NCBI RefSeq assembly: GCF_000312385.1
Contig: NZ_HE997626.1
Coordinates: 1,538,711 to 1,602,710 of the forward strand
From: Tsukamurella sp. 1534
Lineage (GTDB): Bacteria; Actinomycetota; Actinomycetes; Mycobacteriales; Mycobacteriaceae
Length of the DNA stretch: 64,000 nucleotides
Direction: 5' to 3'
Both the position numbers and the translations under genes were made by a program. Positions 2,247 to 64,000 of this stretch are shown in pieces (position 1 is the stretch's first letter; each line of letters begins with the position of its first letter). The notes under the pieces were generated by a model, which was not told the origin of the DNA, made no database searches, and saw only the letters and a list, made by a program, of their open reading frames with translations.

Positions 2247-3692
2247 TCACTGCCTCCTGACTGTCTTGTCGTACAGGCCCAGCAGGCGTCCGGCCGGGTC
2301 GTAACGGGACTTCAACTGTTCCAAGTCCGGGCCGCCGTAGAGGGCGTCGAACTCGTCGCGCCCGTAGAAGGCTTCGGAGTAGAGCGATTTGTGCCCTCCG
2401 AGTTCCGAGACCCTCTTCTCGATCAGCCGGTTCGCGCGGCCGTCGATCTGGCCGGGCTGCTTGGGGACTGCGGACCAGAACCCCACGTTCACGTACGTCC
2501 TCCGGGGTTCCAGCGGGTAGAGCGGCCACGGCCGCTCCGGGTCGGCGCCGGCGGGCGCGGGTTCGCGGAGGCGCAACGGGCACAACCAGATCGGTTCGAT
2601 CGGGATCTCGTCGAGGAACCAGTCCAGGAAGTCGGTGATCTTGCCGATCTCCACCTCGATGTCCTGCACCACGCGCTCGCCGGGAGGCTCGCCCTTGCGC
2701 GCCGAGAGCTTGTCGCCGATGTCCCAGCGCCGGTCCAGCGCCACGAGCTTCCAGTAGAAGCTGCTGCGCAGCAGGTGTTTCGGCCACATCCGGCGGATCC
2801 TGGGGTTCTGTGCGCCGAAGGCTCGGGAGCACCAGAACCAGTCGGTGTCCCAGCGCCACAGGTAGTCGTGGGTCGTGAGCCGGTCGCGCAGCACCCCGTC
2901 GGCGTGCTGCAGCGACCGGTAGTAGACGTCCATCCCGGTGTAGTCGCTGACGGGGCCGTCGTCGTCGGTCTTCCGCCCCAGGGTGAGGTACGCCTCGTCC
3001 CGGGAGAACACCACGCCGTCGAGGTAGTCGACGGGTTCGCCGTCGTGGGCCCCGGCGCCGACGACGGCGTCCATCGTCGCCTGCAACTCGTGCAGGTCGT
3101 GGAAGCGCACGTGCCGCAGCTCGACGAACCGCCGGACGGGTTCCAGATCCACGGTCAGCCGCGTCGAATAGCCCAGCGTGCCGTACGAATTCGGGAAACC
3201 GAAGTACAGATCCGCGTTGGGTCCGTCGGGGGTCGCGGTCACCACCTCGCCGGCGCCGGTGAGGATGTCCATCGACCGCACCGCCTCGTGCGGGAGTCCC
3301 GCGCGGAACGAGCTGGACTCGATTCCCATGCCCGTGACCGCGCCGCCCAGGGTGATGGTCTTGAGCTGCGGCACCACGGTGGGCGCGAGGCCGAAAGGCA
3401 GTGTCGCGGCGACGAAGTCCTGGTAGGTGCACACGCCGCCGACGTCCGCGGTCCGCGCGTCCGGATCGATCGAGACCACGGCCCCCAGGCCGGAGACCTC
3501 CAGGCCCGGGGCGTCGGTCGCGGCCCTGGCGCGGAAGAGATTCGAGGTCTTCTTCGCGAGGCGGACCCGGGATTCGGCCGGAATGGCCCGGTAGCTGGCC
3601 TCCAGGCGGGCGAGGCCCTCGGCGTACGCGGCCTCGCCGCCGATCGGGACCGTGGTCGGTGTGCGGGCCTGCGGGTCGTTGCGAGCGCTCAC
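2247..3692 (-). CDS. FAD-binding oxidoreductase (BfaA / sterol-reductase-like), likely 10-methylene fatty acid reductase
   Basis: A 481-residue FAD-linked oxidase of the FAD_binding_4 type. The N-terminal half carries the flavin-binding region, including GAVVSIDPDARTADVGG and the stretch LKTITLGGAVTGMGIESSS. The C-terminal half is rich in aromatic residues. The start is GTG (3690-3692 on the plus strand). It is the first gene of a two-gene unit with the CFA-type methyltransferase 3 bp downstream. From family knowledge the partner pair makes 10-methyl branched fatty acids, so this protein probably reduces the 10-methylene acyl chain, likely with NADPH. It resembles DHCR24-type sterol reductases overall, so a sterol or other lipid substrate cannot be excluded. 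Confidence 0.8.
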   Translation of the reverse strand: MSARNDPQARTPTTVPIGGEAAYAEGLARLEASYRAIPAESRVRLAKKTSNLFRARAATDAPGLEVSGLGAVVSIDPDARTADVGGVCTYQDFVAATLPFGLAPTVVPQLKTITLGGAVTGMGIESSSFRAGLPHEAVRSMDILTGAGEVVTATPDGPNADLYFGFPNSYGTLGYSTRLTVDLEPVRRFVELRHVRFHDLHELQATMDAVVGAGAHDGEPVDYLDGVVFSRDEAYLTLGRKTDDDGPVSDYTGMDVYYRSLQHADGVLRDRLTTHDYLWRWDTDWFWCSRAFGAQNPRIRRMWPKHLLRSSFYWKLVALDRRWDIGDKLSARKGEPPGERVVQDIEVEIGKITDFLDWFLDEIPIEPIWLCPLRLREPAPAGADPERPWPLYPLEPRRTYVNVGFWSAVPKQPGQIDGRANRLIEKRVSELGGHKSLYSEAFYGRDEFDALYGGPDLEQLKSRYDPAGRLLGLYDKTVRRQ

Positions 3693-6465: not shown

Positions 6466-7113
6466 GTGTACGAAGGCCCAGTTCAAGAGCTGATCGACGA
6501 GCTCGCCAAGCTCCCGGGAGTCGGGCCGCGCGGCGCCCAGCGCATCGCGTTCCACCTCCTGGGGGTGCAGCCCGGCGACATCGACCGGCTCACCCATGCC
6601 CTCACCCGGGTGCGCAACGACGTGCGCTACTGCGAGGTGTGCGGCAACGTCGCCGCCGAGGAACGGTGCCGGATCTGCTCCGATCCGCGCCGCGACGCCT
6701 CCAAGATCTGCGTCGTCGAGGAGGCGAAGGACGTCCAGGCGGTGGAGCGCACCCGCGAGTACCGCGGGCTCTACCACGTGCTCGGCGGCGCCCTGAACCC
6801 GATCAAGAGCGTCGGCCCGGACAAGCTGCGGATCCGCGAGCTGCTCGTGCGGCTGGGCACCCCCGTCGACGGGGTGGACGTCGACGAGGTGATCATCGCG
6901 ACCGACCCCAACACGGAGGGCGAGGCCACCGCGGCGTTCCTGGTGCGCATGCTCAAGGACTTCCCGGGTCTCACCGTGACCCGGCCCGCCGCCGGCCTGC
7001 CGATGGGCGCGGAGCTGGAGTTCGCCGATGAGCTCACCCTCGGCCGCGCGATGTCCGGCCGCCGCTCCCTCGCCGAGCCCCCGCGGGTGCTCGAAGAGTC
7101 CCCGCCGAGCTGA
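6466..7113 (+). CDS. recR: Recombination mediator RecR
   Basis: RecR, 215 residues, acts with RecF/RecO to load RecA at single-strand gaps. N-terminal helix-hairpin-helix ([20 protein letters not shown]), then a C4 zinc site ([17 protein letters not shown]), then a Toprim domain (residues ~75-175: [14 protein letters not shown] ... [16 protein letters not shown]). The start is GTG at 6466. The last ~15 residues ([15 protein letters not shown]) extend slightly beyond the usual end. A P-loop kinase gene begins 4 bp after the stop, so the two are probably cotranscribed. Confidence 0.95.
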
Positions 7114-7116
7114 TCC

Positions 7117-7686
7117 GTGGACGCCGCGGAGGTGGTGCAGCGGCTGGGCGGCCGCGAGGGGACCGTCGCCGTCGACGGCCTGTCCGGGGCGGGGAAGTCG
7201 ACGTACGCCCAGGGCCTCGTCGAGGAGCTGCGCGCCGCGGGCGCGCGCACGGCCCTGGTCCGCACCGACGACTACGCCACCTGGGACGACCCCGTCGCCT
7301 GGTGGCCTCGCATGGTCGAGGAGATCCTGCTTCCCTTCTCGCGCGGCTGGGACGCGCACTACCGGCCGATGGTCTGGCGCGACGGTACGCCGCGGCCCGG
7401 CCCCGAGGTCCGGCTGCCGTGGGCGCCGCTCGTGGTGATCGAGGGCGTGTCCAGCGCGCGCCGCTCGTTCGCCCGCAGGCTCGGCCTCGCGCTGTGGCTG
7501 GAGGGCGGCACCGCCGCCGAGCGGCTGGAGCGGAGCGTGGCCCGCGACGGCGAGGCGGAGCGGGAGCACCTGCGTCGCTGGCAGGAGTTCGAGTCCGGCT
7601 GGTTCGCGGTCGACGGCACGCGCGAGCGCTGCGTGCCGATCGCGCCGTTCGCGAAAATGCACTCAGGAGGCGAGGCGCGGACATAA
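7117..7686 (+). CDS. Uridine-kinase-like P-loop NTPase (Rv3714c position)
   Basis: A 189-residue P-loop protein. Walker A is GLSGAGKSTYA near residue 23, followed by the acidic TDDY motif of nucleoside or phosphoribulokinase-like enzymes, then the strand VVIEGVSSARRS. C-terminal helices carry the basic residues of a lid (ERSVARDGEAEREHLRRWQEFE). It resembles uridine/pantothenate kinase-like ATPases, but no residue fixes the substrate. The start is GTG at 7117, 4 bp after recR. In mycobacteria a conserved gene also follows recR here. I would call it a small-molecule kinase, substrate unknown. Confidence 0.7.
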   Translation: MDAAEVVQRLGGREGTVAVDGLSGAGKSTYAQGLVEELRAAGARTALVRTDDYATWDDPVAWWPRMVEEILLPFSRGWDAHYRPMVWRDGTPRPGPEVRLPWAPLVVIEGVSSARRSFARRLGLALWLEGGTAAERLERSVARDGEAEREHLRRWQEFESGWFAVDGTRERCVPIAPFAKMHSGGEART

Positions 7687-26258: not shown

Positions 26259-29200
26259 GTGGAGCACGAGGTGCACTCCTTGACCGGAGCCCAGTACGGA
26301 ATGTGGCTCAGCCAGCAGATGTCGCCCGACGTGGCGTACACCGTTGCGCAGTACGTCGATTTCCACGGCGATCTGGACCTCGATCAGATGCGCGCCGCCA
26401 CCCGGGCCGCGTCCGACGAGTTCGTCTCCCCGTACATCCGGATCGACGTCGACGAGTCCGGGGCGCCCGTGCAGCGCGTGGACCGATCGATCGACGGGGC
26501 CGCGTCGATCGTCGAGCTCGACTTCGGCGACGCGTCAGAGGAGGAGCGCGTGGCGGCGGCGGTCGAGTGGATGCGCGCGGAGTACACCCGCCCGCTCGAC
26601 CTGGCCACCGACGACCTCATCATCAACAGCCTCATCCGGATCGGCGAGAAGCGCTGGTTCTGGTACGCGCGCGCCCACCACGTGGTGATCGACGGTTACG
26701 GCGCGTCCACGCTGCAGCGGCGCGTCGCCGAGCTGTACACGGCGTACGTCACCGGGGCCGAGGTGCCGCCGCTCCGGCCCACCCCGCTCGGCCCCGACGG
26801 CTTCGTCGCCGCCGAGAGGAAGTACCTCGATTCGCCGCGCTCCGAGGGGGACGGCGAGTACTGGGCCGGCGTGGTCGCCACCCTTCCCGAGGCCGCGGGC
26901 CTCGGCCGGAGGATCGCCGCGCCGTCGCCGATCAACCTGCGGCACAACGGGACCCCGTCCGCGGAGGCCGGCGCCAGGTTGGAGGCCGCGGCCGAGCGCC
27001 TGGGCACGAACCGCACGGGCCTCGTGATCGCCGCGTTCGGTGCGTACATCGCCGCCGTCGCGGGCCGCGACGAGATCTCGCTGTCGGTGCCCGTGGCCGC
27101 GCGCACCACCGCCGCGCTCCGCGGCTCCACGGGCATGACCGCCAACGTGCTCCCCGTGCCCGTGCGCGCGGGCGCGGGCGCCACCGTCTCGGACGTCATC
27201 GACGGCACCGGGCTCGACCTGCGCAACGGGCTGCGCCACCAGCTGTATCCGGCCGCCCGGATGGAGGCCCCGACGCTGCGCGACGGCGTCGTCGGCTCCA
27301 CCTTCGGCGACACCATCAACATCATGATGTTCTCCACCGCCATCACGCTGGGGGAGACCGAGGGACACCTCAACCTGCTCACCTCCGGGCCCGCCGAGGA
27401 CATCGCCGTCACCGTGTACGAGTCGGAACAGGGCGCTCTGCGCATCGACATGGAGGCCAACCCGGCCGGCCACTCCCTCGACGACCTGCACGCCCATCAC
27501 GCGCGCTTCATGGACTACCTCGAGCGATTCGCGGCCGCGGCGGGCTCCACGCCGCTCTCGGCGCTGGCCGTCGGATCCGAGGGCGAGGAGGCCGACTGGC
27601 TCCGGTTCGCCGGGGCGGACGAGGACGCGCGGGAGGCCGCGGGCCCTTCGGTGCCGCTGCCCGATCTGCTGCGCCGCGCCGCCGCCGACCATCCGGACGG
27701 CGTGGCGGTCGTCGACGGCGATCGCACCATCACCTACGCCGACCTGGACCAGTACAGCGACCGGCTGGCGCGCTACCTCATGACGGTGGGCGCGCGGCCG
27801 GAGGAGCGCGTCGCGCTGCGCATCCCGCGCTCGCTGGAGTCCGTCATCGCGGTCTGGGCCGTCGCCAAGACCGGTGCCGCGTTCGTCCCGATCGACCCGC
27901 GCCTGCCCGCCGACCGCGCCGCGCACATCGCTGCCGCCGCCGCGCCCGTGGCCACGCTCGCACCGTCGGACCTGGCCCGCGTGTGGGGCCCGGGAGCGAA
28001 CGCCGGCAGCAGCGACGCGGACTGGCCCGAGATCTCCCTCGACAACCCCGCGTACCTGATCTTCACCTCCGGCTCGACCGGCCGCCCCAAGGGCGTCAGC
28101 GTCACTCACCGCGGGCTGTCCGGCCTCGCGGCGGAACTCGTGTGCGCACACGGCCTGCGCGACGGCGCCCGCGTGATGCACTTCGTTTCGCCGGGATTCG
28201 ACGCGTCCGTGCTCGAACTGCTCATGGCGGTGCAGGGCGCATCGGCCCTGGTCGTGGTGCCGCCGGACGTGTACGGCGGCGACGAGCTCGGCGAGGTTCT
28301 CGAGAAGGGCGGCGTGAACGGCGGTTTCATCACCCCCGCCGCGCTCGCCACCCTCGAGCCCGGGCAGCTGCCCGAGCTCACCTCTCTCGGCGTGGGCGGC
28401 GACACCGTCCCGCAGGCGCTGGTCGAGAAGTGGGCACCGGGGCGCACCCTGGTCAACGTCTACGGCCCCACCGAGACCACGATCGCGGTGACCCTCGGCG
28501 CGCTGTCGGGCGACGGGCCCGTGCGCCTCGGCGGCCCGATTCCCGGCACCCGCCTGTACGTGCTCGATCCGTCGTTGCGCCCCAGCCCGATCGGCGTGGC
28601 CGGCGAGCTCTACATCTCCGGGCCCGGCGTCGCGCGCGGCTACCACGGCAACCCGCGGATGACGGCGGAACGCTTCGTCGCCGATCCCTTCCGTGCCGAC
28701 GGCAGCCGCATGTACCGATCGGGCGACCTCGTCCGCTGGGACCGCGACGGCGCCCTGGAGTTCCTGGGCCGCATCGACTCCCAGGTCAAGCTGCGCGGAT
28801 TCCGCATCGAGCTCGGGGAGATCGACGCCGCCGTCATGCGCGTTCCGGGCACCGAGCGCGCCGTCACCGTGGTCCTCGGCGACGACACCGCGACCGCCGA
28901 ACTCGTCAGCTACGTCACCGGCACCGCCGACGCCGTCGCGATCACCGCGGGCATCACGGCGGAGCTGCCCGCGTACATGGTCCCGGCCCACATCATCGTG
29001 ATCGACGAGTTCCCGCTCACGGTCAACGGCAAGGTCGACCACAAGCTGCTCCCGCAGCCCGACCGCGCCGTCGTCGCCGAGACGGCGGGACGCGCACCGT
29101 CGACCGACGCGGAGAGGCTCGTGGCCGCCGCGTTCGCCGAGGTGATCCCCGGCGTCGACAAGGACAACCTGAACGTCTCCACGACCCTGTTCGATCTGGG

Positions 29201-32200
29201 CGGGAACTCGCTGTCCGCCACCAGGATCGCCGCCCGCCTGGGCTCGGCCACCGGCAGCCGGGTCAGCGTGGCGACGGTGTTCGCCGGCCCCACGGTCGAG
29301 GGCCTCGCGGCCGCGATCGGCGGCACCCCCGTGCCCGCCGCGCAGGCGATCGCCTCGTTCGCGGGGGCCGAACCGGAGGCCGCCCCCGAATCCGCCGCGG
29401 CGGCACCCGACTTCGAGGAGGCGGCGGAACTGCTTCCCGCGCAGCACCAGATGTGGGTGCGCAACCGGGTGAGCCCCGACGGCTCCTACCACATTCCGGT
29501 CGCCCTGCACCTGCGCGGCGACGTGGACGTCTCCGCCCTGCGCCTGGCGCTCGGCGACGTGGTGGCGCGGCACACGCCGCTGCGCACCGTCTACCGCAAC
29601 GGCCCCACCTCGGGGGAACCGGAGGTGCAGGTGCTGCCCGCCGGCCCGAACCTGGTGCCGTTCACCGAGCGCACCCTGCCCCTCGACCAGCTCACCTCGG
29701 CCGCGACCGAGTACGCCGGGGATCCCTTCGATCTGGCGGCGGACGTGCCGATCCGGGCGCGGATCTACAAGATCGATCCGCGGCACCAGGTGCTGGTGCT
29801 GGTGATCCATCACATCGCGGCGGACGGTTGGTCGATGATGCCGCTCGCGGGCGAGCTCGCGATGGCGTACGCATCGCGGACGCGTGGGAAGGCGCCGAAG
29901 TTCCCGCCGCTGCCGCGCACCTACACCCAGCACGCGCGCATCTACAAGCACCGGCTCACCGGCGCCCCCCGTCACGCGCTGGACACCTTCTGGGCGAACA
30001 CCCTCGCCAACCCGCCCGCGGAATCGGTTCCGCCCGCTGCGGTCCCGCGTTCCGGCGGGGTGGTCTCGGGCGCCAAGACGATCGACACCCGCGTCGCGCC
30101 CGAGATCTGGGCCGGCGTCGCCGGCCTCGCGCGGGCACACACCACCACCCCGTTCATCGTGGTGCACGCGGCGCTCGCGGCGGCGATCTCGCGGCTGTCC
30201 GGCCAGGAGGACCTGGTGATCGGCACGGCCGTCGCGGGCCGCGGCGAGGCGGAGCTCGACGGGCTCGTGGGGATGTTCGTCAACTCGATCCCGCTGCGCA
30301 CCCGCACACCGCGGACCATGACGTTCGCCCAGCACCTCGCCGCCGTCAGCCGCGGCGACCTCGATGCGCTCGATCATTCGGACCTGCCGTTCGAATCGGT
30401 GCTGGAGCTGGTCGACCCGCCCCGCGCCGCCGGCCGGCACCCGATCTTCCAGGTGATGCTCAACCAGCGGCCGTTCGACACCCAGCACTTCCCGATGGCC
30501 GGGATCGACGTGGAGGTGGTGCCGGTCGACGTGCCCATCGCCCGGTTCGACCTCGAGGTCACCCTGGCCGGCGACGGCACCATCGAGCTGCGGTACGCGT
30601 CCGAGCTGTACCGCGCCGAGCAGGCCGAATCGATCCTCGACGCGCTGGTCTCCGTGCTCACCGCGGCGGGCCGCGATCCGCAGCTGACCATCGCCGACCT
30701 GCCGATCATGACGGAGGAGCGCTTCGCCGAGCTCACCCCGGTGCGGGGCGTCGACGCAGACTTCCGCACCCCGCTCGGGCAGCTCATCCGCGAGGCGGCC
30801 CGCACCTACGCCAACCGCCCCGCCGTCATCGAGGGCGACCGCGTGCTCACCTACCGCGAGCTGTACGCCGACGCCCGCACCGTTGCCGCGGCGGTCCTCG
30901 CCGCGGGATCGCGCCCGGGCGAGGCCGTGCTCACGGATCTGCCCCGCTCCATCTCGTCGGTCACCGCCTTCTGGGGCATCACGCTGGCCGGCGCCGCGGT
31001 CGCGCCCGTCGACCCGAAGTACCCGCAGGAACGCCGCGATTACATCGCCGAGGACGTCCGCGCCCGTGTGGGCGTCACCGCGACCGGCGGCGCTCCCGGC
31101 CTGAACTGGGTGGCCCTGGACCGCCTCGACGGAGACGGGTACGACCCGCAGATCGTGCCCAACCTGGACGACGCCGCGTACGTCATCTACACCTCCGGCT
31201 CCACCGGGAAGCCGAAGGGCACCGTGGTCACCCACCGCGGCCTCGCGAACTTCGCCGAGGAACTGCACGTGCGCCTGCAGACCGGCGCAGACACCCGCGT
31301 GATGGCCTTCGCGTCCACCGCGTTCGACGCCACCGTCCTCGAACACCTCCTGGCGATCCGCGTCGGAGCCCCGCTGGTCATCGTGCCTCCGGGCACCACC
31401 GGAGGTAGGGAACTGGAACGCGTCATCGCCGATCACGGTGTGACGCACGGTTTCCTGACGCCCTCCACGCTGGCCACCCTCGACCCCGCGGCCGTGCCGT
31501 CGTGGAGTCACGTACTCGCGGGCGGCGAGGCGATCAACCCGGGGCTCGCAGCCAAGTGGAGCGCCGGCCGGCGCCTGCACAACGGCTACGGGCCCACCGA
31601 GACCACGATCATGACCGCGATCTCGGACGCCCTCTCCGGGGACGGGCGGGTGCCGATCGGCCCGCCGGTCCGCGGCCAGGGCCTGCTCGTCCTCGACGAG
31701 GAACTGCGCCCCGTGCCCGTGGGCATGGCCGGCGAGCTCTACGTGGCGGGACCGCAACTGGCGCGCGGCTACCACCGCCGCCCGCAGCTCACCGCGTCGC
31801 GGTTCGTCGCGAACCCGTACGGCGCACCCGGTGATCGCATGTACCGCACCGGCGACGTGGTGCGCTGGACCCGCGACGACGCCGGCAAGCTGGTCGTCGA
31901 CTTCGTGGGCCGCAACGACTTCCAGGTGAAGATCCGCGGTATCCGGATCGAGCTGGGCGAGATCGATGCGACCATCGGCACGATGCCGGGCGTCGACTTC
32001 GTGACCACACAGGTCCGCCCGGGACCCGACGGAGAGCCCGCGCTCGTCGCGTACGTCAAGGGCGTCTCGATCGAACCGAACTCGGTGCGCGCGTTCGTGC
32101 GCACCCGCCTGCCGGGCTTCATGGTGCCCGCCGCGGTCGTCCCGATCGACGCGGTACCGATGGGCAGCACCGGCAAGCTCGACAACGCCGCCCTGCCCGC

Positions 32201-35200
32201 GCCGCGGTTCGGCGGCACCGGCGACACCGCCGCCACCCCGACCACTCCGGGCGAGGCGCGCGTTGTCGAGGCGTTCCGCAAGGTGCTGGGCAACAACGCG
32301 ATCGGCGTGGACGACGACTTCTTCGACCTCGGCGGGAACTCGCTCTCCGCCAACGAGCTCGTGGGGTTGCTGGGCAACGGTATCGAGGTGCGCACGGTGT
32401 TCGATCTGCGCACCCCGTCGGCCATCGCGTCGGCACTGACCGGAGATCCCGACCGGATCACCGATGAGGACGCCCTCGAGGACCAGGGCCTGCGCCGAGT
32501 GCAGCGCGGCGACCGGATGCCGCTGTCGTCCGCACAGGAGCGGATGTGGCTGCAGAACAAGATCGACCCGGGCCCGACCTACAACATCGGCGCCGCCTTC
32601 CTGGCCAGCCGCCCCGTCGACAAGGGCGTGCTCGACGCCGCGCTGCGCGACGTGCTCGCTCGGCACGAGAGCCTCCGGACCCGCTATCCCTCCGGCTCCG
32701 AGGGGCCGTACCAGGAGATCCTCTCCGCGAACTCCACCGAGGTGCAGTCCTTCGCGGCCGAATTCGGCACGGCGACGTCCGGCGTCGCGGGCCAGGAGGC
32801 CGCGATCGAGGAGTTCGTCGCGCGCCCGTTCGCGCTGAACCGCGATCTGCCGCTGCGAGTGATGACGGCACCCACCGGCAAGGGGTCGATCCTCGCCATC
32901 GCGGTGCACCACATCGCCGCCGACGGGGCCTCCGTGGTCCCGCTGACCCGCGACCTCATGACGGCCTACCTGGCGCGGACCGGCGGCGGCGAGCCGCACT
33001 GGGCGGAGCTGCCGTTGCAGTACGCCGATTACGCCGTGTGGCAACGCGGTCAGGTCGACAAGGACGCCGGCGCGGTGGACTACTTCGCCGAGCGCCTGGC
33101 GGGCATCCCCGAGGAGAGCTCGTTCCCCGCCGACGGGCCGCGGCCGACGATCGGCTCCACGGACGCGGGCGAGGTGGCCTTGGTGCTGCCGCAGGCGGAC
33201 CGGGATGCTTTGGCGGACTTCGCCGGCCGGCGCGGTGTCTCGATGTTCATGGTCCTGCACGCGGCCCTCGCCGCGTTGTTGCACCGCGTCAACGGATCCG
33301 ACGACGTGGTGGTCGGTACCCCGGTGATCGGCCGGACCGATCGCAGGCTGCGCGACGTGGTCGGCATGTTCGTCAACACGGTGGCGCTGCGGACCCGGGT
33401 CACCGGGACCGAGAGCTTCGGCGCGCTGGTCGACCGCATCCGGAGCGGCGACCTCGACGACCTCGTGCACGCGACCGCGCCGTTCGAGCGGGTCATCGAG
33501 GCCCTCGCACCGCCGCGCAGCCGCGACCGGCACCCGGTGTTCCAGGTGGTGCTGAGCCATCAGAACCTCGGTGACCCGCTGAGCGTGATCACGACCGACG
33601 GAGCCGGCGTCTTCGAGTTGGATCCGCTCCCGCTCGCCGCCGCGACCACCACCTTCGACGCCACCTTCGAGGTGCGCGAGGTGGAGGACGGCCTCCGGTT
33701 CAACCTGCGCTACCGCAGCGACCTGTACAAGCCGGGCACCGCGGAGGGCATCGTCGCCCGCCTGGTGCGGCTCGCCATGGCCGGCGTGGCCCATCCGGAC
33801 ACACCCGTCGCCGATCTGCCGGTACTGCTTCCCACTGAGGAGGAGCTGTTCCTCCGCGCCACGAGTTCGGTGGAGCCGCAGACGATGTCGGACATCCTGG
33901 CGCGTGCCGTGCGGCAGCGCCCGGCAGGTCCGGCCCTGCGCGACGGCACCCTCACGTACACCTACGCCGAGCTCGACTCCGCCGTCTCGGCGCTCGCGAA
34001 CCGCCTCGGCAGCCTCGGCGTCGGGCCCGGAACCAGGGTGGCCGTGGCCGTTCCGCGGTCCGCGGCCTCCGTCGTCGCGTTCTGGGCGGTCGCCCGGGCC
34101 GGCGCCGTGTACGTGCCGATCGACCCGAGCTACCCGGCCGAGCGGATCCGGTACATCCTCGACGATGCCCGACCCGCGCTCGGCCTGACGGTCCGCGAGG
34201 CGCAGGCGGGCCTGCCGGGGGACGTGGAGTGGGTGACGGTGGACCAGTCCACCTCCCGCGTCCAGCGCCCGTCGGCGGAACAGCCGGCCGTCGCGGTCGA
34301 CGACCCCGCCTACGTGATCTACACGTCCGGCTCCACCGGGCGCCCCAAGGGCGTCGTCGTGGCGCATCGCGGGCTCGCCGCGATGGCGGACACCCTGGTG
34401 CGCCGGCACGCCGTGGGCAACGGCGCGCGGGTCCTCCACTTCGCCTCGCCGAGCTTCGACGCGTCGATCCTGGAGCTCCTGCTGGCGACCTGGTCGAGGG
34501 CGGAGCTCGTGGTGGCGCCGACGACCCTCTACGGCGGCTCCCCGCTGGGGGAGTTCCTGGCGGAGAACGAGGTCACCCACGCGTTCATCACCCCTGCGGC
34601 CCTCGCCACCGTGCCGGAGCGGGACCTCCCGCTGCTCGAGGCGCTGAGCGTGGGCGGCGACGCCCTGCAGAGCGAGCTGGCGCGGCGGTGGTCGCACGGT
34701 CGCATCCTGATCAACGCCTACGGCCCCACCGAGGTGACGATCGCCGCCACCATGGGGCAGGTCGACCCCGACAACGTGGGCATCGGCAGCGCCGTCAGCG
34801 ATGCGCAGCTGATGATCTGCGATGAACGCCTCAACCTGGTGGCGCCGGGCACCGTCGGCGAGCTGTACGTCGCGGGACCCGGTGTGGCGCACGGCTACCT
34901 GGACCGCCCCGACCTCACCGCATCCCGGTTCGTGGCCAACCCGTACAACGATGCGCAGGGCTACAAGCGGATGTACCGGACGGGCGACCTGGTGCGCTGG
35001 CGCGCCGACGACGCCGGCGAGCCCGTGCTCGAGTTCGTCGGCCGCAGCGACGATCAGCTCAAGGTGCGGGGATTCCGGGTGGAGCCCGGCGAGGTCGCGG
35101 CGGCCGTCGAGAGCCACCCCGCGGTACGCCAGGCGGTGGTCGTCGTGGACCGCGGCGACGGTTCGCTCGCGGCGCAGGCCGCGGCCAGGCTGGTCGCGTA

Positions 35201-37667
35201 CTACGTGGCGGACGGCGTGCTCACCGCCGAGGCACTGCGCGAGCACGTCTCGGATCGCCTTCCGCGCCACATGGTCCCGACGGTGTTCCAGCGGATCGAC
35301 GAGGTGCCGCTCACCGCGCACGGCAAGACCGACCTCAAGGCCCTGCCGCCGGTGAGCGCGGAGCGCGCCGAGACGCGGGATTCGGCCGAGCCGGAGCTCG
35401 AGGTGCCGTCCTCGCTCGCCGGTCTGGTGTCCCTCGCCCCCGCGGAGCGCATCGCGCCGAAGCCGGACTCCGAGCCCGAACCCGAGCCGGAATCGGCGCC
35501 GGATCCGAAGCCGGGCCCGAAGGCGGAGCCCAGCACGCGGGCGGCGCAGGGCGCGAAACCCACGCCGCTGCGCGCGGTCCCGGCGCCGGCGTCGTCCGCG
35601 GGGCTCGAAACCGCCGTCGCGGAGATCCTGGCGGACGTGCTCGGCGCGGCGTCCCTCGCCCCGGAGGACGACTTCTTCGCGGCGGGCGGCACCTCGCTGC
35701 AGGCCGCGATCGCGGTGGACCGGCTGCGCGAGAAGTTCGACGCGGAGGACGCCAGCATCCGCTGGTTCTTCGAGGACGCCACCGTGGGCTCGATCGCGGC
35801 GCGCCTCGCCGGCGCGCCGGCGCCCGTCGAGACGACGGCCGTGATCACCGGGGTGGCGGCGGATTCCGACACCGCCATCACCGACCCGATCCTGCCTCTG
35901 CGCGCCGGAACCGCCGGCGTGGACCCCCTGTACTGCGTGCACCCCGCGGTCGGCCTGGCGTGGAACTACCTGGGGCTCAGCAGCAGCCTGGATCCGAGCA
36001 TCCCGATCATCGGGCTGCAGGCGCCGGGGATCTCGCACCCGATGCCGCCCGCGGACTCCATCAAGGAGCTCGCGCGCAACTACGTGCGCGCGATCCGGGC
36101 GAGCCGTCCCCACGGCCCGTACAACCTGCTGGGGTGGAGCCTCGGCGGGCTCATCGCGCACGAGATGGCGGTGGAGCTGCGGGGCCTGGGCGAGAAGGTG
36201 AACCTCGCGCTCATGGACGCGTACCCGCTCAACGACTACCGCGGTCCGCGCGAGGAGATGTCCATCGCGGCGCTGTTGCGCGAGTTCGTCGGCCTCGACG
36301 TCCCCGAGGACGCCGAGCTCACCGCCGACGACGCGCTGGACCTGCTGGCCACCGCCGGCGGCCCCGCGCGGGAGCTCTCCCGCGGCCAGATGGAGCGGCT
36401 GCTGTCGAATTACAAGCACAACACGCTGCTCGGCTACTCGCACCTCCCGCGTGAGTACGACGGCAACGTACTGGTGTTCCGCGCGACGCAGCAGCCCGTC
36501 GGCGGGCTGGTGCCGCAGCTGTGGCGCCCGTTCGTGACCGGCCTGGTGCAGGTGCACGACATCGAGGCGACGCACAACCAGCTGGGATCGGCACCCGCGA
36601 TCGACGAGATCGCGCGCACGATGAACGTGTTCCTCACGGGCAACTACACGGCCGTGGTCGCGTCGAAGAGCAAGACCATCGACGATTCCACGCCGCTGGT
36701 GAGCGTGCGCGGCCTCGCGCGCAAGTACGGCCGTGGCAAGAAGGCCGTCTACGCGCTCAACGGGGTCGATCTGGACATCGCGCCGGGCAGTGTGCACGCG
36801 CTGCTGGGCCCGAACGGCGCCGGCAAGACGACCACCGTGAAGATCATCTCGACGCTCATGAAGCCCTCGTCGGGCACGGTGACGATCGACGGTGTCGACG
36901 CGCTCGCCGACCCCCGCAAGGCCCGCTCGATCATCGGCCTCTCGGGCCAGTACTCGGCCGTCGACGAGAACCTCACCGGCCGCGAGAACCTCGAGATGTT
37001 CGCCCGGCTCTACGGTTTCGACAAGACGTCGGCGAAGGCGCGGGCCATCGAGCTGCTCAAGCAGTTCCGGCTCACCAACGCCGCCGACCGCCCGTCGGGC
37101 ACCTACTCGGGCGGTATGCGCCGGCGCCTGGACCTGGCGGGCGCGATCATCGCCCGGCCGCGGCTCGTGGTGCTCGACGAGCCCACCACCGGCCTCGACC
37201 CGCGCAGCCGCAAGGACGTGTGGGACGTGATCGCGCGGCTGAGCAAGGAGGACGGGATCTCCGTGCTGCTCACCACGCAGTACCTGGACGAGGCGGAGAT
37301 CCTCGCCGACCTGGTGACGATCATCGACCAGGGCCGGATCATCCGCAGCGGCACCGTCCCTGAGCTGAAATCGGCTGCGGCGGCGGACCTGATCCAGATC
37401 GGGTTGCGGGAACGGGATCGCGTCACCGCGTGGCCGATCCTGGCGCGGCACGCGATCGACGGCACCGCGATCCGCGAGGCCTCCGGGCTGTGCGCGATCC
37501 GCGTGGCGGACGGGCAGCACAAGCTGGTCGCCGTCCTGGACGACCTGCGCGAGGCGGGTGTCCAGGCCGAGACCGCGATGGTCCGCGAGGCCACCCTGGA
37601 CGACGTGTTCTTCGCCCTCACCGGCGAGGACGCGAACAAGTCGAGCTCGGAGGAGTCGAACCGATGA
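26259..37667 (+). CDS. Three-module nonribosomal peptide synthetase with thioesterase fused to an ABC-transporter ATPase
   Basis: One 3802-residue open frame with no stop. Domains in order (approximate residues): C1 5-430 (HHVVIDG at 140), A1 465-930, T1 (GGNS, Ser984), C2 1057-1490 (HHIAADG at 1184), A2 1504-1975, T2 (GGNS, Ser2028), C3 2087-2520 (HHIAADG at 2217), A3 2542-3030, a Pro/Glu-rich linker, T3 (GGTS, Ser3146), TE 3205-3460 (GWSLGG Ser3294, Asp3320, His3439), then a DrrA-like ATPase 3485-3802 (Walker A Lys3523, YSGGMRRRLDLAGA, VVLDEPTTGLD at 3640). All A domains keep the YTSGSTG/FTSGSTG core. No epimerase. C1 resembles EntF/DhbF-type starters (inference). A tripeptide-length product is expected, possibly siderophore-like; identity unknown. 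The permease gene overlaps by ATGA and mbtH follows. TTG 26256 is an alternative start. Confidence 0.93.
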   Translation: MEHEVHSLTGAQYGMWLSQQMSPDVAYTVAQYVDFHGDLDLDQMRAATRAASDEFVSPYIRIDVDESGAPVQRVDRSIDGAASIVELDFGDASEEERVAAAVEWMRAEYTRPLDLATDDLIINSLIRIGEKRWFWYARAHHVVIDGYGASTLQRRVAELYTAYVTGAEVPPLRPTPLGPDGFVAAERKYLDSPRSEGDGEYWAGVVATLPEAAGLGRRIAAPSPINLRHNGTPSAEAGARLEAAAERLGTNRTGLVIAAFGAYIAAVAGRDEISLSVPVAARTTAALRGSTGMTANVLPVPVRAGAGATVSDVIDGTGLDLRNGLRHQLYPAARMEAPTLRDGVVGSTFGDTINIMMFSTAITLGETEGHLNLLTSGPAEDIAVTVYESEQGALRIDMEANPAGHSLDDLHAHHARFMDYLERFAAAAGSTPLSALAVGSEGEEADWLRFAGADEDAREAAGPSVPLPDLLRRAAADHPDGVAVVDGDRTITYADLDQYSDRLARYLMTVGARPEERVALRIPRSLESVIAVWAVAKTGAAFVPIDPRLPADRAAHIAAAAAPVATLAPSDLARVWGPGANAGSSDADWPEISLDNPAYLIFTSGSTGRPKGVSVTHRGLSGLAAELVCAHGLRDGARVMHFVSPGFDASVLELLMAVQGASALVVVPPDVYGGDELGEVLEKGGVNGGFITPAALATLEPGQLPELTSLGVGGDTVPQALVEKWAPGRTLVNVYGPTETTIAVTLGALSGDGPVRLGGPIPGTRLYVLDPSLRPSPIGVAGELYISGPGVARGYHGNPRMTAERFVADPFRADGSRMYRSGDLVRWDRDGALEFLGRIDSQVKLRGFRIELGEIDAAVMRVPGTERAVTVVLGDDTATAELVSYVTGTADAVAITAGITAELPAYMVPAHIIVIDEFPLTVNGKVDHKLLPQPDRAVVAETAGRAPSTDAERLVAAAFAEVIPGVDKDNLNVSTTLFDLGGNSLSATRIAARLGSATGSRVSVATVFAGPTVEGLAAAIGGTPVPAAQAIASFAGAEPEAAPESAAAAPDFEEAAELLPAQHQMWVRNRVSPDGSYHIPVALHLRGDVDVSALRLALGDVVARHTPLRTVYRNGPTSGEPEVQVLPAGPNLVPFTERTLPLDQLTSAATEYAGDPFDLAADVPIRARIYKIDPRHQVLVLVIHHIAADGWSMMPLAGELAMAYASRTRGKAPKFPPLPRTYTQHARIYKHRLTGAPRHALDTFWANTLANPPAESVPPAAVPRSGGVVSGAKTIDTRVAPEIWAGVAGLARAHTTTPFIVVHAALAAAISRLSGQEDLVIGTAVAGRGEAELDGLVGMFVNSIPLRTRTPRTMTFAQHLAAVSRGDLDALDHSDLPFESVLELVDPPRAAGRHPIFQVMLNQRPFDTQHFPMAGIDVEVVPVDVPIARFDLEVTLAGDGTIELRYASELYRAEQAESILDALVSVLTAAGRDPQLTIADLPIMTEERFAELTPVRGVDADFRTPLGQLIREAARTYANRPAVIEGDRVLTYRELYADARTVAAAVLAAGSRPGEAVLTDLPRSISSVTAFWGITLAGAAVAPVDPKYPQERRDYIAEDVRARVGVTATGGAPGLNWVALDRLDGDGYDPQIVPNLDDAAYVIYTSGSTGKPKGTVVTHRGLANFAEELHVRLQTGADTRVMAFASTAFDATVLEHLLAIRVGAPLVIVPPGTTGGRELERVIADHGVTHGFLTPSTLATLDPAAVPSWSHVLAGGEAINPGLAAKWSAGRRLHNGYGPTETTIMTAISDALSGDGRVPIGPPVRGQGLLVLDEELRPVPVGMAGELYVAGPQLARGYHRRPQLTASRFVANPYGAPGDRMYRTGDVVRWTRDDAGKLVVDFVGRNDFQVKIRGIRIELGEIDATIGTMPGVDFVTTQVRPGPDGEPALVAYVKGVSIEPNSVRAFVRTRLPGFMVPAAVVPIDAVPMGSTGKLDNAALPAPRFGGTGDTAATPTTPGEARVVEAFRKVLGNNAIGVDDDFFDLGGNSLSANELVGLLGNGIEVRTVFDLRTPSAIASALTGDPDRITDEDALEDQGLRRVQRGDRMPLSSAQERMWLQNKIDPGPTYNIGAAFLASRPVDKGVLDAALRDVLARHESLRTRYPSGSEGPYQEILSANSTEVQSFAAEFGTATSGVAGQEAAIEEFVARPFALNRDLPLRVMTAPTGKGSILAIAVHHIAADGASVVPLTRDLMTAYLARTGGGEPHWAELPLQYADYAVWQRGQVDKDAGAVDYFAERLAGIPEESSFPADGPRPTIGSTDAGEVALVLPQADRDALADFAGRRGVSMFMVLHAALAALLHRVNGSDDVVVGTPVIGRTDRRLRDVVGMFVNTVALRTRVTGTESFGALVDRIRSGDLDDLVHATAPFERVIEALAPPRSRDRHPVFQVVLSHQNLGDPLSVITTDGAGVFELDPLPLAAATTTFDATFEVREVEDGLRFNLRYRSDLYKPGTAEGIVARLVRLAMAGVAHPDTPVADLPVLLPTEEELFLRATSSVEPQTMSDILARAVRQRPAGPALRDGTLTYTYAELDSAVSALANRLGSLGVGPGTRVAVAVPRSAASVVAFWAVARAGAVYVPIDPSYPAERIRYILDDARPALGLTVREAQAGLPGDVEWVTVDQSTSRVQRPSAEQPAVAVDDPAYVIYTSGSTGRPKGVVVAHRGLAAMADTLVRRHAVGNGARVLHFASPSFDASILELLLATWSRAELVVAPTTLYGGSPLGEFLAENEVTHAFITPAALATVPERDLPLLEALSVGGDALQSELARRWSHGRILINAYGPTEVTIAATMGQVDPDNVGIGSAVSDAQLMICDERLNLVAPGTVGELYVAGPGVAHGYLDRPDLTASRFVANPYNDAQGYKRMYRTGDLVRWRADDAGEPVLEFVGRSDDQLKVRGFRVEPGEVAAAVESHPAVRQAVVVVDRGDGSLAAQAAARLVAYYVADGVLTAEALREHVSDRLPRHMVPTVFQRIDEVPLTAHGKTDLKALPPVSAERAETRDSAEPELEVPSSLAGLVSLAPAERIAPKPDSEPEPEPESAPDPKPGPKAEPSTRAAQGAKPTPLRAVPAPASSAGLETAVAEILADVLGAASLAPEDDFFAAGGTSLQAAIAVDRLREKFDAEDASIRWFFEDATVGSIAARLAGAPAPVETTAVITGVAADSDTAITDPILPLRAGTAGVDPLYCVHPAVGLAWNYLGLSSSLDPSIPIIGLQAPGISHPMPPADSIKELARNYVRAIRASRPHGPYNLLGWSLGGLIAHEMAVELRGLGEKVNLALMDAYPLNDYRGPREEMSIAALLREFVGLDVPEDAELTADDALDLLATAGGPARELSRGQMERLLSNYKHNTLLGYSHLPREYDGNVLVFRATQQPVGGLVPQLWRPFVTGLVQVHDIEATHNQLGSAPAIDEIARTMNVFLTGNYTAVVASKSKTIDDSTPLVSVRGLARKYGRGKKAVYALNGVDLDIAPGSVHALLGPNGAGKTTTVKIISTLMKPSSGTVTIDGVDALADPRKARSIIGLSGQYSAVDENLTGRENLEMFARLYGFDKTSAKARAIELLKQFRLTNAADRPSGTYSGGMRRRLDLAGAIIARPRLVVLDEPTTGLDPRSRKDVWDVIARLSKEDGISVLLTTQYLDEAEILADLVTIIDQGRIIRSGTVPELKSAAAADLIQIGLRERDRVTAWPILARHAIDGTAIREASGLCAIRVADGQHKLVAVLDDLREAGVQAETAMVREATLDDVFFALTGEDANKSSSEESNR

Positions 37668-38503
37668 CCGCGATCACCTTCCCGCAGGAGCGGCAGTCCT
37701 CGCTCGCCGGTTTCGTCAGCGACTGCGCCGTGATGACCCGGCGCAACCTCACGACGCTGGTGCGCATCCCGCAGCTGCTGCTGGCGGCCACCGTGCAGCC
37801 GATCATGTTCGTGCTGCTGTTCAGCTACGTGTTCGGCTCCGCGCTGGGCGGCGAGGTGGGCGGCGCCCACTACCGGGAGTTCCTGCTCGGCGGCATCCTG
37901 GTGCAGACGGTCGCCTTCGCCTCCGCGACCACCGCGATCGGCGTCGCGTCCGACATGAAGAACGGCATCATCGACCGGTTCTGTTCGCTGCCCATGTCCC
38001 GCCTGTCGATCATGGTGGGGCGCACCGTCTCCGACCTCGTGGTCAACGTGATCAGCATCGCCGTGATGCTCGGCGTCGGACTCATCGTGGGCTGGCGGAT
38101 GCGCGGCGACTGGGGCGACGCGTTGCTCTCGCTGGCCGTGCTCCTGCTGTTCGGTTTCGCGATGTCCTGGCTGGGTGCCCTCATCGGGCTCATGGTGTCG
38201 ACGCCGGAGTCCGCGCAGGCCGCCCTGATGATCGTGATGTTCCCCATCGCCTTCATCTCCTCGGCGTTCATCGCCGCGGGCGACCTCCCCGGACCGCTGC
38301 GCACCATCGCGGCGTGGAATCCGGTGACCGCGATGGCCCGCTCCCTGCGCGAGGCGTTCGGAAACCCGCTGAGCCCCAAACCCGTGATGGACGAGCCCAT
38401 CAACTGGGCGTCGGAGCACGCGACCGCGTACGCGGCCATCAGCTCCGTCGCGATGATCGTCATCCTCGTGCCGCTCGCCGCCCGCGCCTACATGCGGCAC
38501 TAG
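37664..38503 (+). CDS. ABC-2 type transporter permease, DrrB-like
   Basis: A 279-residue membrane protein of the ABC-2 (DrrB) family with about six helices. It starts with a cytosolic segment ([20 protein letters not shown]) and contains the family signature [26 protein letters not shown]. The end [19 protein letters not shown] is also typical. The ATG lies in the ATGA overlap with the stop of the NRPS gene, whose C-terminus is the matching ATPase. Together they should form the exporter of the peptide; ABC-2 pumps act as dimers of permease and ATPase, so each synthetase would carry one ATPase to the membrane. Confidence 0.92.
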
Positions 38504-38555: not shown

Positions 38556-38759
38556 ATGAACAACCCCTTCGACAACGAATCCGGCGAGTTCCTCGTCCTC
38601 GTCAACGACGAGGGCCAGCATTCGCTGTGGCCGACGTTCCGCGAGGCGCCGAACGGATGGACCGTGACCTTCGGGGAGGGCGGCCGGTCGCGCACCGAGT
38701 GCCTCGAGTACATCGAGAACGCCTGGACGGACATCCGCCCGCTCAGCCTGCGCGCCTGA
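38556..38759 (+). CDS. MbtH-like protein
   Basis: A 67-residue MbtH-like protein, a small partner that binds adenylation domains and is often needed for their folding or activity. It contains the family residues: [20 protein letters not shown], then [31 protein letters not shown] at the end. It begins 52 bp after the permease stop behind AAGGAGTCACGAAAA. Being the last gene of the locus, it should serve the three A domains of the large synthetase. Confidence 0.95.
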
Positions 38760-62672: not shown

Positions 62673-64000
62673 ATGCCGAACCTCGCCGAGAACCTCACCG
62701 CCGCAGCCGCCGCGCGCCCCGACGCGCTCGCGCTGAAATGCGACGACCTGGAGTACACCTACGCCGCCTTCGATGAGGCCGCCGCCCGCTTCGCCGCGTA
62801 CCTCGCCGACCAGGGCATCGGCCCCGGCGACCGGGTGGGCGTCATGCTGCCCAACACGCCCGCCTTCGCGATCGTCTTCTACGGGATCCTGCGCCGCGGC
62901 GCGGTCGCCGTTCCGATGAACCCGCTGCTCAAGTCCGCGGAGATCGAGTACTACCTCGCGAACACCGCCGCCAAGGCCCTGTTCGCCACCCCCGTCTTCG
63001 CCGCCGACGCCGAGGCCGGCGCGAAGGCCGCCGGAGCCACCTGCCACTTCGGCGACGACGCCGCCCTCGCGGCGCTGCTCTCCCGCTTCGAGCCGCTCAC
63101 CGCGGTCGAGCCGCGCGCCGACTTCGACACCGCGGTCATCCTGCACACCTCGGGCACCACGGGGAAGCCCAAGGGCGCCGAGCTCACCCACGCCGGCCTG
63201 AACCGCAACTGCGAGATCGCCGGACGCACGCTGTTGCACCTCACCGGCGACGACGTGGTCATGGGCTGCCTGCCTCTGTTCCACGTGTTCGGCCTCACCT
63301 GCGGGCTCAACACGGCCGTGCTGTTCGGCGCCGCGCTCACCCTGATCCCGCGGTTCGACCCGCGCAAGGCCATCGACGTGATCGGCCGCGACCACGTCAC
63401 CGTGTTCCTCGGCGTCCCCACCATGTACGGCGCCATGGTCGCCGCGATCCAGCCCGGCGACGACGTCTCCTCGCTGCGGGCCTGCTGCTCCGGCGGCGCG
63501 GCCCTGCCGTTGCGGGTGATCTCCGACTTCGAGGAGGCGTTCAACGCGATCATCATGGAGGGCTACGGCCTCTCCGAGACGTCGCCGGTCGCGTCCTTCA
63601 ACCACCCCGACAAGCCGCGGAAGGCCGGGACGATCGGTACGCCCATCGAGGGCGTCGAGATGCGGGTGATCGGTGACGACGGTAAGCCCGTCCCGACCGG
63701 CGAGCGCGGCGAGATCCAGGTGCGCGGCCACAACATCATGAAGGGCTACTGGAACCTGCCCGAGGCCACCGCCGCCGCGATCGACGCCGACGGCTGGTTC
63801 TCCACCGGCGACATCGGGATCGTCGACGAGGAGGGCTACTTCTCCATCGTCGACCGCAAGAAGGAGCTGATCATCCGCGGCGGCTTCAACGTGTACCCCC
63901 CGCGAGATCGAGGAGGTGCTCTACGGGCACCCCGAGATCGCCGAGGCCGCCGTCATCGGGCTCCCGCACGACTCGCTCGGCGAGGAGGTGGGTGCCGCCG
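62673..64000 (+). CDS. Long-chain fatty acid--CoA ligase (AMP-binding), incomplete at the edge, with +1 frameshift
   Basis: An acyl-AMP/CoA ligase that activates fatty acids. ATG 62673; core motifs [33 protein letters not shown] and [20 protein letters not shown], then [13 protein letters not shown]. At 63896-63901 there is a run of six C. With five C the frame continues correctly as [20 protein letters not shown] then [12 protein letters not shown] to the window edge; with six it goes into an unrelated frame. So one base is extra: either a sequencing error or a real inactivating mutation. The C-terminal domain is cut by the edge. Regulated perhaps by the upstream PucR-type gene. Confidence 0.88.

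Follow-up and report, generated by a model that had tools for sequence, protein, structure and literature searches.

A nonribosomal peptide synthetase joined in frame, through its thioesterase, to an exporter-type ABC ATPase in Tsukamurella

Are assembly-line enzymes physically tied to the exporters that serve them? Few experiments bear on the question (CesCD; MmpL7-PpsE, as cited in PMC7527721). It is raised by a gene in the window, the 64,000-nucleotide stretch of Tsukamurella sp. 1534 analysed here, which reads from a three-module nonribosomal peptide synthetase (NRPS) through its thioesterase (TE) into the ATPase of an exporter.

The gene is a single stop-free frame with a GTG start, preceded by good Shine-Dalgarno pairing (−7.3 kcal/mol), and its translation has a predicted mass of 402.9 kDa (Table 1). 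Pfam found three Condensation, three AMP-binding and three PP-binding domains, one Thioesterase (residues 3223-3456) and one ABC_tran domain (3500-3644). The uninterrupted run from three C-A-T modules through the TE into the ATPase, proposed in the first-pass annotation, was thus borne out by translation, Pfam and NCBIfam. The TE has its GWSLGG motif at 3292 (Ser3294) with Asp3320 and His3439, so the triad is intact, and the ATPase has Walker A at 3517, YSGGM at 3616 and VVLDEPTTGLDP at 3637. The modular C/A/T layout, the carrier serine motifs and the Ser-Asp-His triad are those of a type I multimodular NRPS, except that the TE does not end the chain, as the ATPase follows it in frame. When the 622-aa TE-ATPase stretch was used as the query, the ATPase was assigned to TIGR01188 drrA (315.6 bits; curated cut-off 312.45). 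DrrA-type ATPases are usually free-standing subunits of about 300-350 aa, whereas this frame runs from NRPS to ATPase without a stop. A TE-ATPase query gave 84 matches in its own genome, which holds many other ABC ATPases. Two side features of the gene are a Pro/Ala-rich, fast-evolving A3-T3 linker (35349-35633, residues 3031-3125; dN/dS 0.46) and an antisense open frame of 3661 codons (minus strand, 26535-37520) opposite the NRPS, which GC-rich codon use probably explains.

Table 1. Features of the locus, in window coordinates. Limits within the fusion gene were read around the Pfam matches and are not Pfam borders as such; adenylation-domain residues follow GrsA numbering, with the final K assumed; transmembrane (TM)-like stretches are a simple hydropathy count.
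Feature	Coordinates	Strand	Remarks
NRPS-exporter ATPase fusion gene	26259..37667	+	layout (C-A-T)x3-TE-DrrA, 3802 aa, 403 kDa
C1 condensation domain	26259..27578	+	nearest solved structures 7c1k, ObiF1, CDA peptide synthetase I, EntF
A1 adenylation domain	27636..29093	+	specificity residues DALFGGVIA(K), identical in 13/13 Tsukamurella genomes
T1 carrier domain	29121..29318	+	Pfam; GGNS at 981
Module 2, C2 + A2	29421..32228	+	A2 residues DALFLGGIM(K) in 12/13 genomes
T2 carrier domain	32259..32453	+	Pfam; GGNS at 2025
Module 3, C3 + A3	32514..35348	+	A3 residues DALFSGAIA(K) in 13/13 genomes
T3 carrier domain	35634..35828	+	Pfam; GGTS at 3143
Type I thioesterase	35925..36626	+	triad Ser3294/Asp3320/His3439
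TE-ATPase linker	36633..36698	+	about 22 residues, low model confidence
DrrA-type ABC ATPase domain	36699..37628	+	Pfam, NCBIfam; Walker A 36807-36830
ABC-2 permease	37664..38503	+	279 aa, ABC2_membrane, six TM-like stretches, Shine-Dalgarno −9.5
MbtH-like protein	38556..38759	+	Pfam, 67 aa

What does the synthetase make? The four structures nearest to C1 are of what we take to be first or starter C domains, and there is no loading module beside C1 within the window; because of these two points our guess is an N-acylated tripeptide. Across the 13 Tsukamurella genomes with the gene, the codes of A1 and A3 are invariant and that of A2 differs by one residue in one genome, so the product is probably alike in all of them. 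Near the window end lies a second adenylation-like stretch (62733-63899), 25-27% identical to the A domains and perhaps an acyl ligase.

The probable partner of the ATPase is encoded immediately downstream. The permease start lies inside the fusion stop (ATGA, 37664-37667), an overlap already noted in the first-pass annotation, and the permease is next after the fusion in 13/13 genomes, overlapping by ATGA in nine and by TGATG in four. This conserved overlap makes ATPase and permease look translationally coupled. The permease scored 100 bits against ABC2_membrane (cut-off 26.9) and 74.6 bits against TIGR01247 drrB, whose cut-off is 223.05. In the window, as in a T. tyrosinosolvens record, the gene order is leuA, NRPS, permease, MbtH, mannosyltransferase, aspartate kinase and aspartate-semialdehyde dehydrogenase.

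A frame error or missed stop at the TE-ATPase junction would undo the fusion. This was ruled out in practice: the reading frame also runs through the junction in 12 other genomes and in a named RefSeq record that annotates it as one CDS. Altogether the fused frame is present in 13 of 16 genomes of the genus (our own and 12 of 15 others). The 12 relatives are 86-92% identical over the TE-ATPase stretch, and their stop-to-stop frames, all without a stop, span 3754-3844 aa, apart from one cut by a contig end at 3583. The catalytic triad, Walker A, YSGGM signature, VVLDEPTTGLDP motif, Walker B and switch region, the motifs among them as first described, are identical in 13/13. The RefSeq protein, WP_074850851.1 of T. 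tyrosinosolvens NCTC13231 (3757 aa, same neighbours), is 92% identical over TE and ATPase and carries only the name 'non-ribosomal peptide synthetase'; it is a 14th sequence, not counted as independent, since its ATPase part is identical to that of genome G005. The T. tyrosinosolvens record that encodes it, labelled 'plasmid 27' (NZ_LR134469.1, locus L118), shares leuA and the genes for aspartate kinase and aspartate-semialdehyde dehydrogenase with the window and may be a piece of chromosome.

As far as the assemblies show, the other three genomes of the genus (G014, G008 and G007) have no ortholog of the NRPS start; the G014 assembly is 83% complete and that of G007 is in 890 contigs. At E 1e-60 the NRPS start had matches of 32-41% identity in G008 and G014, and none in G007. 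Leaving the NRPS site out, leuA and the mannosyltransferase gene are separated by about 0.3 kb in G014, by about 0.8 kb on one contig in G007 and by about 3.8 kb in G008, and a tblastn search of these intervals (E 1e-8) with NRPS, permease and MbtH gave no match. In G008 (locus L140, 2417-6178) the site of the congeners' NRPS is taken up by about 3.8 kb of other DNA.

How did the fusion arise? We compared 16 loci outside the genus together with their surroundings. A TE lies just upstream of the ATPase in 12, and the fetched stretch of the other four held no TE. In all 12 (L119, L120, L133-L136, L143-L145, L147, L149 and L151, from the same family and Streptomyces) the gene order is that of Tsukamurella, with the ATPase 43-54% (L143 apart) and the permease 23-62% identical, but a stop in the TE frame separates TE from ATPase where in Tsukamurella they are fused. 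Five of the 12 carry an MbtH sequence after the TE and before the ATPase, whereas MbtH follows the permease in Tsukamurella. A full counterpart in architecture is in genome G020, which has the identical ten-domain order (C-A-T x3-TE; stop-to-stop 3528 aa; domain identities 36-53%) and an A1 code, DALFGGVVA against DALFGGVIA, that differs at one of the nine positions read. There the two genes are separate and share an ATGA overlap of NRPS stop and ATPase start, so their co-translation was already tight. In G062 a single stop separates TE and ATPase, both in the same frame.

Some of these loci have peculiarities of their own. At L143 (G062, about 4897) separate ATPase matches fall in two frames (query codons 3-178 and 179-317; 65% and 41% identical over the two pieces), and this ATPase is therefore broken or mis-assembled. 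L151 (G029, 6567-7611) has MbtH within the TE's own open frame, beside a separate ATPase, and from its sequence may carry an NRPS-TE-MbtH fusion. L119 and L120, on Streptomyces plasmids, have a TE-ended NRPS and separate ATPase and permease genes near lasso-peptide genes.

A quick tree built from 55 ATPases put the fused ones in one clade (SH-aLRT 100), and the rows nearest to it were the unfused ATPases of G027 and G020 (supports 82 and 93). Given one ATPase clade and the same gene order in unfused loci, the simplest account is that the separate ATPase gene of such an operon was joined to the NRPS once, either at the base of Tsukamurella or inside the genus. An apparent independent fusion in G027, in a 5024-aa open frame, was rejected, as stops and an MbtH gene lie between its TE and ATPase.

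This origin also fits a fusion of convenience, in which the stop between two coupled genes was lost once, giving equal expression with no benefit from docking, hand-over or fixed stoichiometry, while the ATPase domain would go on serving the exporter. Co-transcribed neighbours, once fused, can persist with no gain from coupling, and the single clade, the adjacent yet separate genes outside the genus and the ATGA overlap in G020 all agree with such a history. So does the TE-ATPase linker (residues 3457-3476), which with a dN/dS of 0.37 evolves faster than the domains. Among the parts compared the ATPase (residues 3477-3790) has the lowest dN/dS, 0.087, and the C, A, T and TE domains (T2 left out) lie at 0.107-0.182; these values are averages over pairs of the 13 genomes, which share history, and are descriptive. 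Yet in the 13 genomes with the locus there is no re-split gene, even though pS in the domains averages about 0.31-0.39. The fusion therefore looks as if it is kept by purifying selection, and we hold a neutral fusion to be unlikely, though a contender to be taken seriously.

Would the cell make one chain or two? In a structure model the last TE helix spans 3447-3458 and the first ATPase strand begins at 3481, leaving a linker of about 22 residues, close to the 25 or so of the first-pass annotation. TE and ATPase were each modelled with good confidence, residues 3465-3476 of the linker fell below pLDDT 50, and with a pTM of 0.49 the relative orientation of the two domains is not reliable. Foldseek matched the ABC ATPase 4yer (36% identity) and the NRPS thioesterase 7crn, which merely confirms the two folds. 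A separate ATPase could be freed, besides or instead of the fusion, by proteolysis in this linker, which the model renders as disordered, or by translation from Met3455 (36621) as an internal start; residues 3430 to 3494 contain no other in-frame ATG. The Met3455 codon is present in 13/13 genomes, in 10 of which GAGG lies 11 nt upstream (−6.6), and the codons preceding it (3432-3443) show low synonymous variation (3.5th percentile). However, in the window its Shine-Dalgarno pairing is −3.0 kcal/mol, which is background level, as 211 internal ATG/GTG codons have the same median; where NRPS, MbtH and permease start, the values are −7.3, −7.8 and −9.5. The six in-frame GTG codons within residues 3430-3483 gave +0.3 to −4.0. 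Moreover, the GAGG falls on Glu-Val codons in the tail of the TE, so protein constraint alone could explain it, and Met3455 sits within the last TE helix. The original statement that no ribosome site precedes an internal start thus holds for this window but may not hold for the 10 genomes with GAGG, and production of a separate ATPase seems quite improbable.

Is the arrangement found elsewhere? No uninterrupted TE-ATPase frame was detected outside the genus in 61 relatives' genomes. Nor was one found in 397 genomes of the order, 394 of the class and 356 of the phylum (sets that overlap with one another and with the relatives), or in 378 genomes around a Rhodoferax and 378 around a Paenibacillus; these negatives are weak, as only the best three candidates per genome were considered, at strict E-values. 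Among the 80 loci listed, picked because they resemble the linker and the beginning of the ATPase, the longest stop-to-stop frame round the best ATPase match was 794 aa, so no ATPase among them is fused to an NRPS. A search of 72,556 plasmid records gave six matches covering at least 80% of the query: the one from Tsukamurella is fused, and the five on Streptomyces plasmids list two features under the match (H2 and H6 were examined in the record). In the open-access literature, including work on Tsukamurella NRPS clusters and siderophores, we did not find an NRPS-TE-ABC ATPase fusion described, which is weak evidence that none has been. The first-pass annotation had called the locus a candidate for an undescribed system. 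That no such fusion was found described agrees with this, but the locus is a variant within a known operon type. We rate the operon and the families as known and, judging from sequence, the covalent NRPS-ATPase link as new.

What might the fusion do? The arrangement suggests that peptide making and export are physically coupled, and the pump probably exports the peptide made by the NRPS fused to it. The account we favour, and hold to be fairly probable, is that NRPS, TE and exporter ATPase are made as one chain, docked at the membrane via the permease, and that the acyl-tripeptide is released beside the pump. The three modules, TE and ABC-2 exporter ATPase would be translated as one 403-kDa chain. 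DrrA-type ATPases work as a pair on ABC-2 permeases; two ATPase domains would thus pair on two permease copies, and the permease assembly would thereby hold the synthetase at the membrane. On its flexible leash of about 22 residues, the TE would free the N-acylated tripeptide next to the pump, allowing local hand-over of the product. A stronger version, in which ATP-driven ATPase pairing unites two NRPS chains, the cycle times TE release and the product passes straight to the permease, bypassing the cytosol, strikes us as rather improbable.

Docking of the synthetase through its ATPase is plausible by analogy with cereulide. According to PMC7527721, CesC, the ATPase, binds to a CesA condensation domain, CesA reaches the membrane only with both CesC and CesD, and mutating Walker A of CesC disturbs the interaction and abolishes cereulide synthesis. 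That paper reports binding of CesC to C domains and no detected CesC-TE interaction, and thus gives no support to TE-ATPase contact; the hand-over from TE to pump is our inference. The first-pass annotation further proposed that release and export are coupled and that pump number follows synthetase number; such ties may be looser, as the permease has its own gene, the genome offers many other ABC ATPases and a free ATPase could arise by internal initiation or proteolysis. The loss of cereulide in the Walker A mutant also allows a reading in which the Tsukamurella ATPase serves synthesis more than export, keeping the NRPS in a productive conformation as CesC might, so that loss of ATP binding would halt synthesis. 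Against this, the permease adjoins the ATPase in 13/13 genomes, and we consider it highly improbable.

Coupled synthesis and export, as we favour it, would make the fusion a natural template for tying an enzyme of biosynthesis to an exporter. Because a natural fusion, covalent by its sequence, can be set against the unfused counterpart from another genus of the family as a control, the question can be tested directly. The nearest known systems each share part of the arrangement. The DrrA of the daunorubicin exporter DrrA/DrrB is free-standing. Like that exporter, the Tsukamurella pump is of the two-protein ABC-2 kind, with an ATPase above the drrA cut-off, but its permease falls far below that of drrB and its ATPase is fused. 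CesAB-CesCD, as described in PMC7527721, likewise has a TE-ended NRPS adjoining an ABC ATPase/permease pair; there the proteins are separate and meet in trans through C domains, whereas in Tsukamurella the link, judging from sequence, would be covalent and run through the TE.
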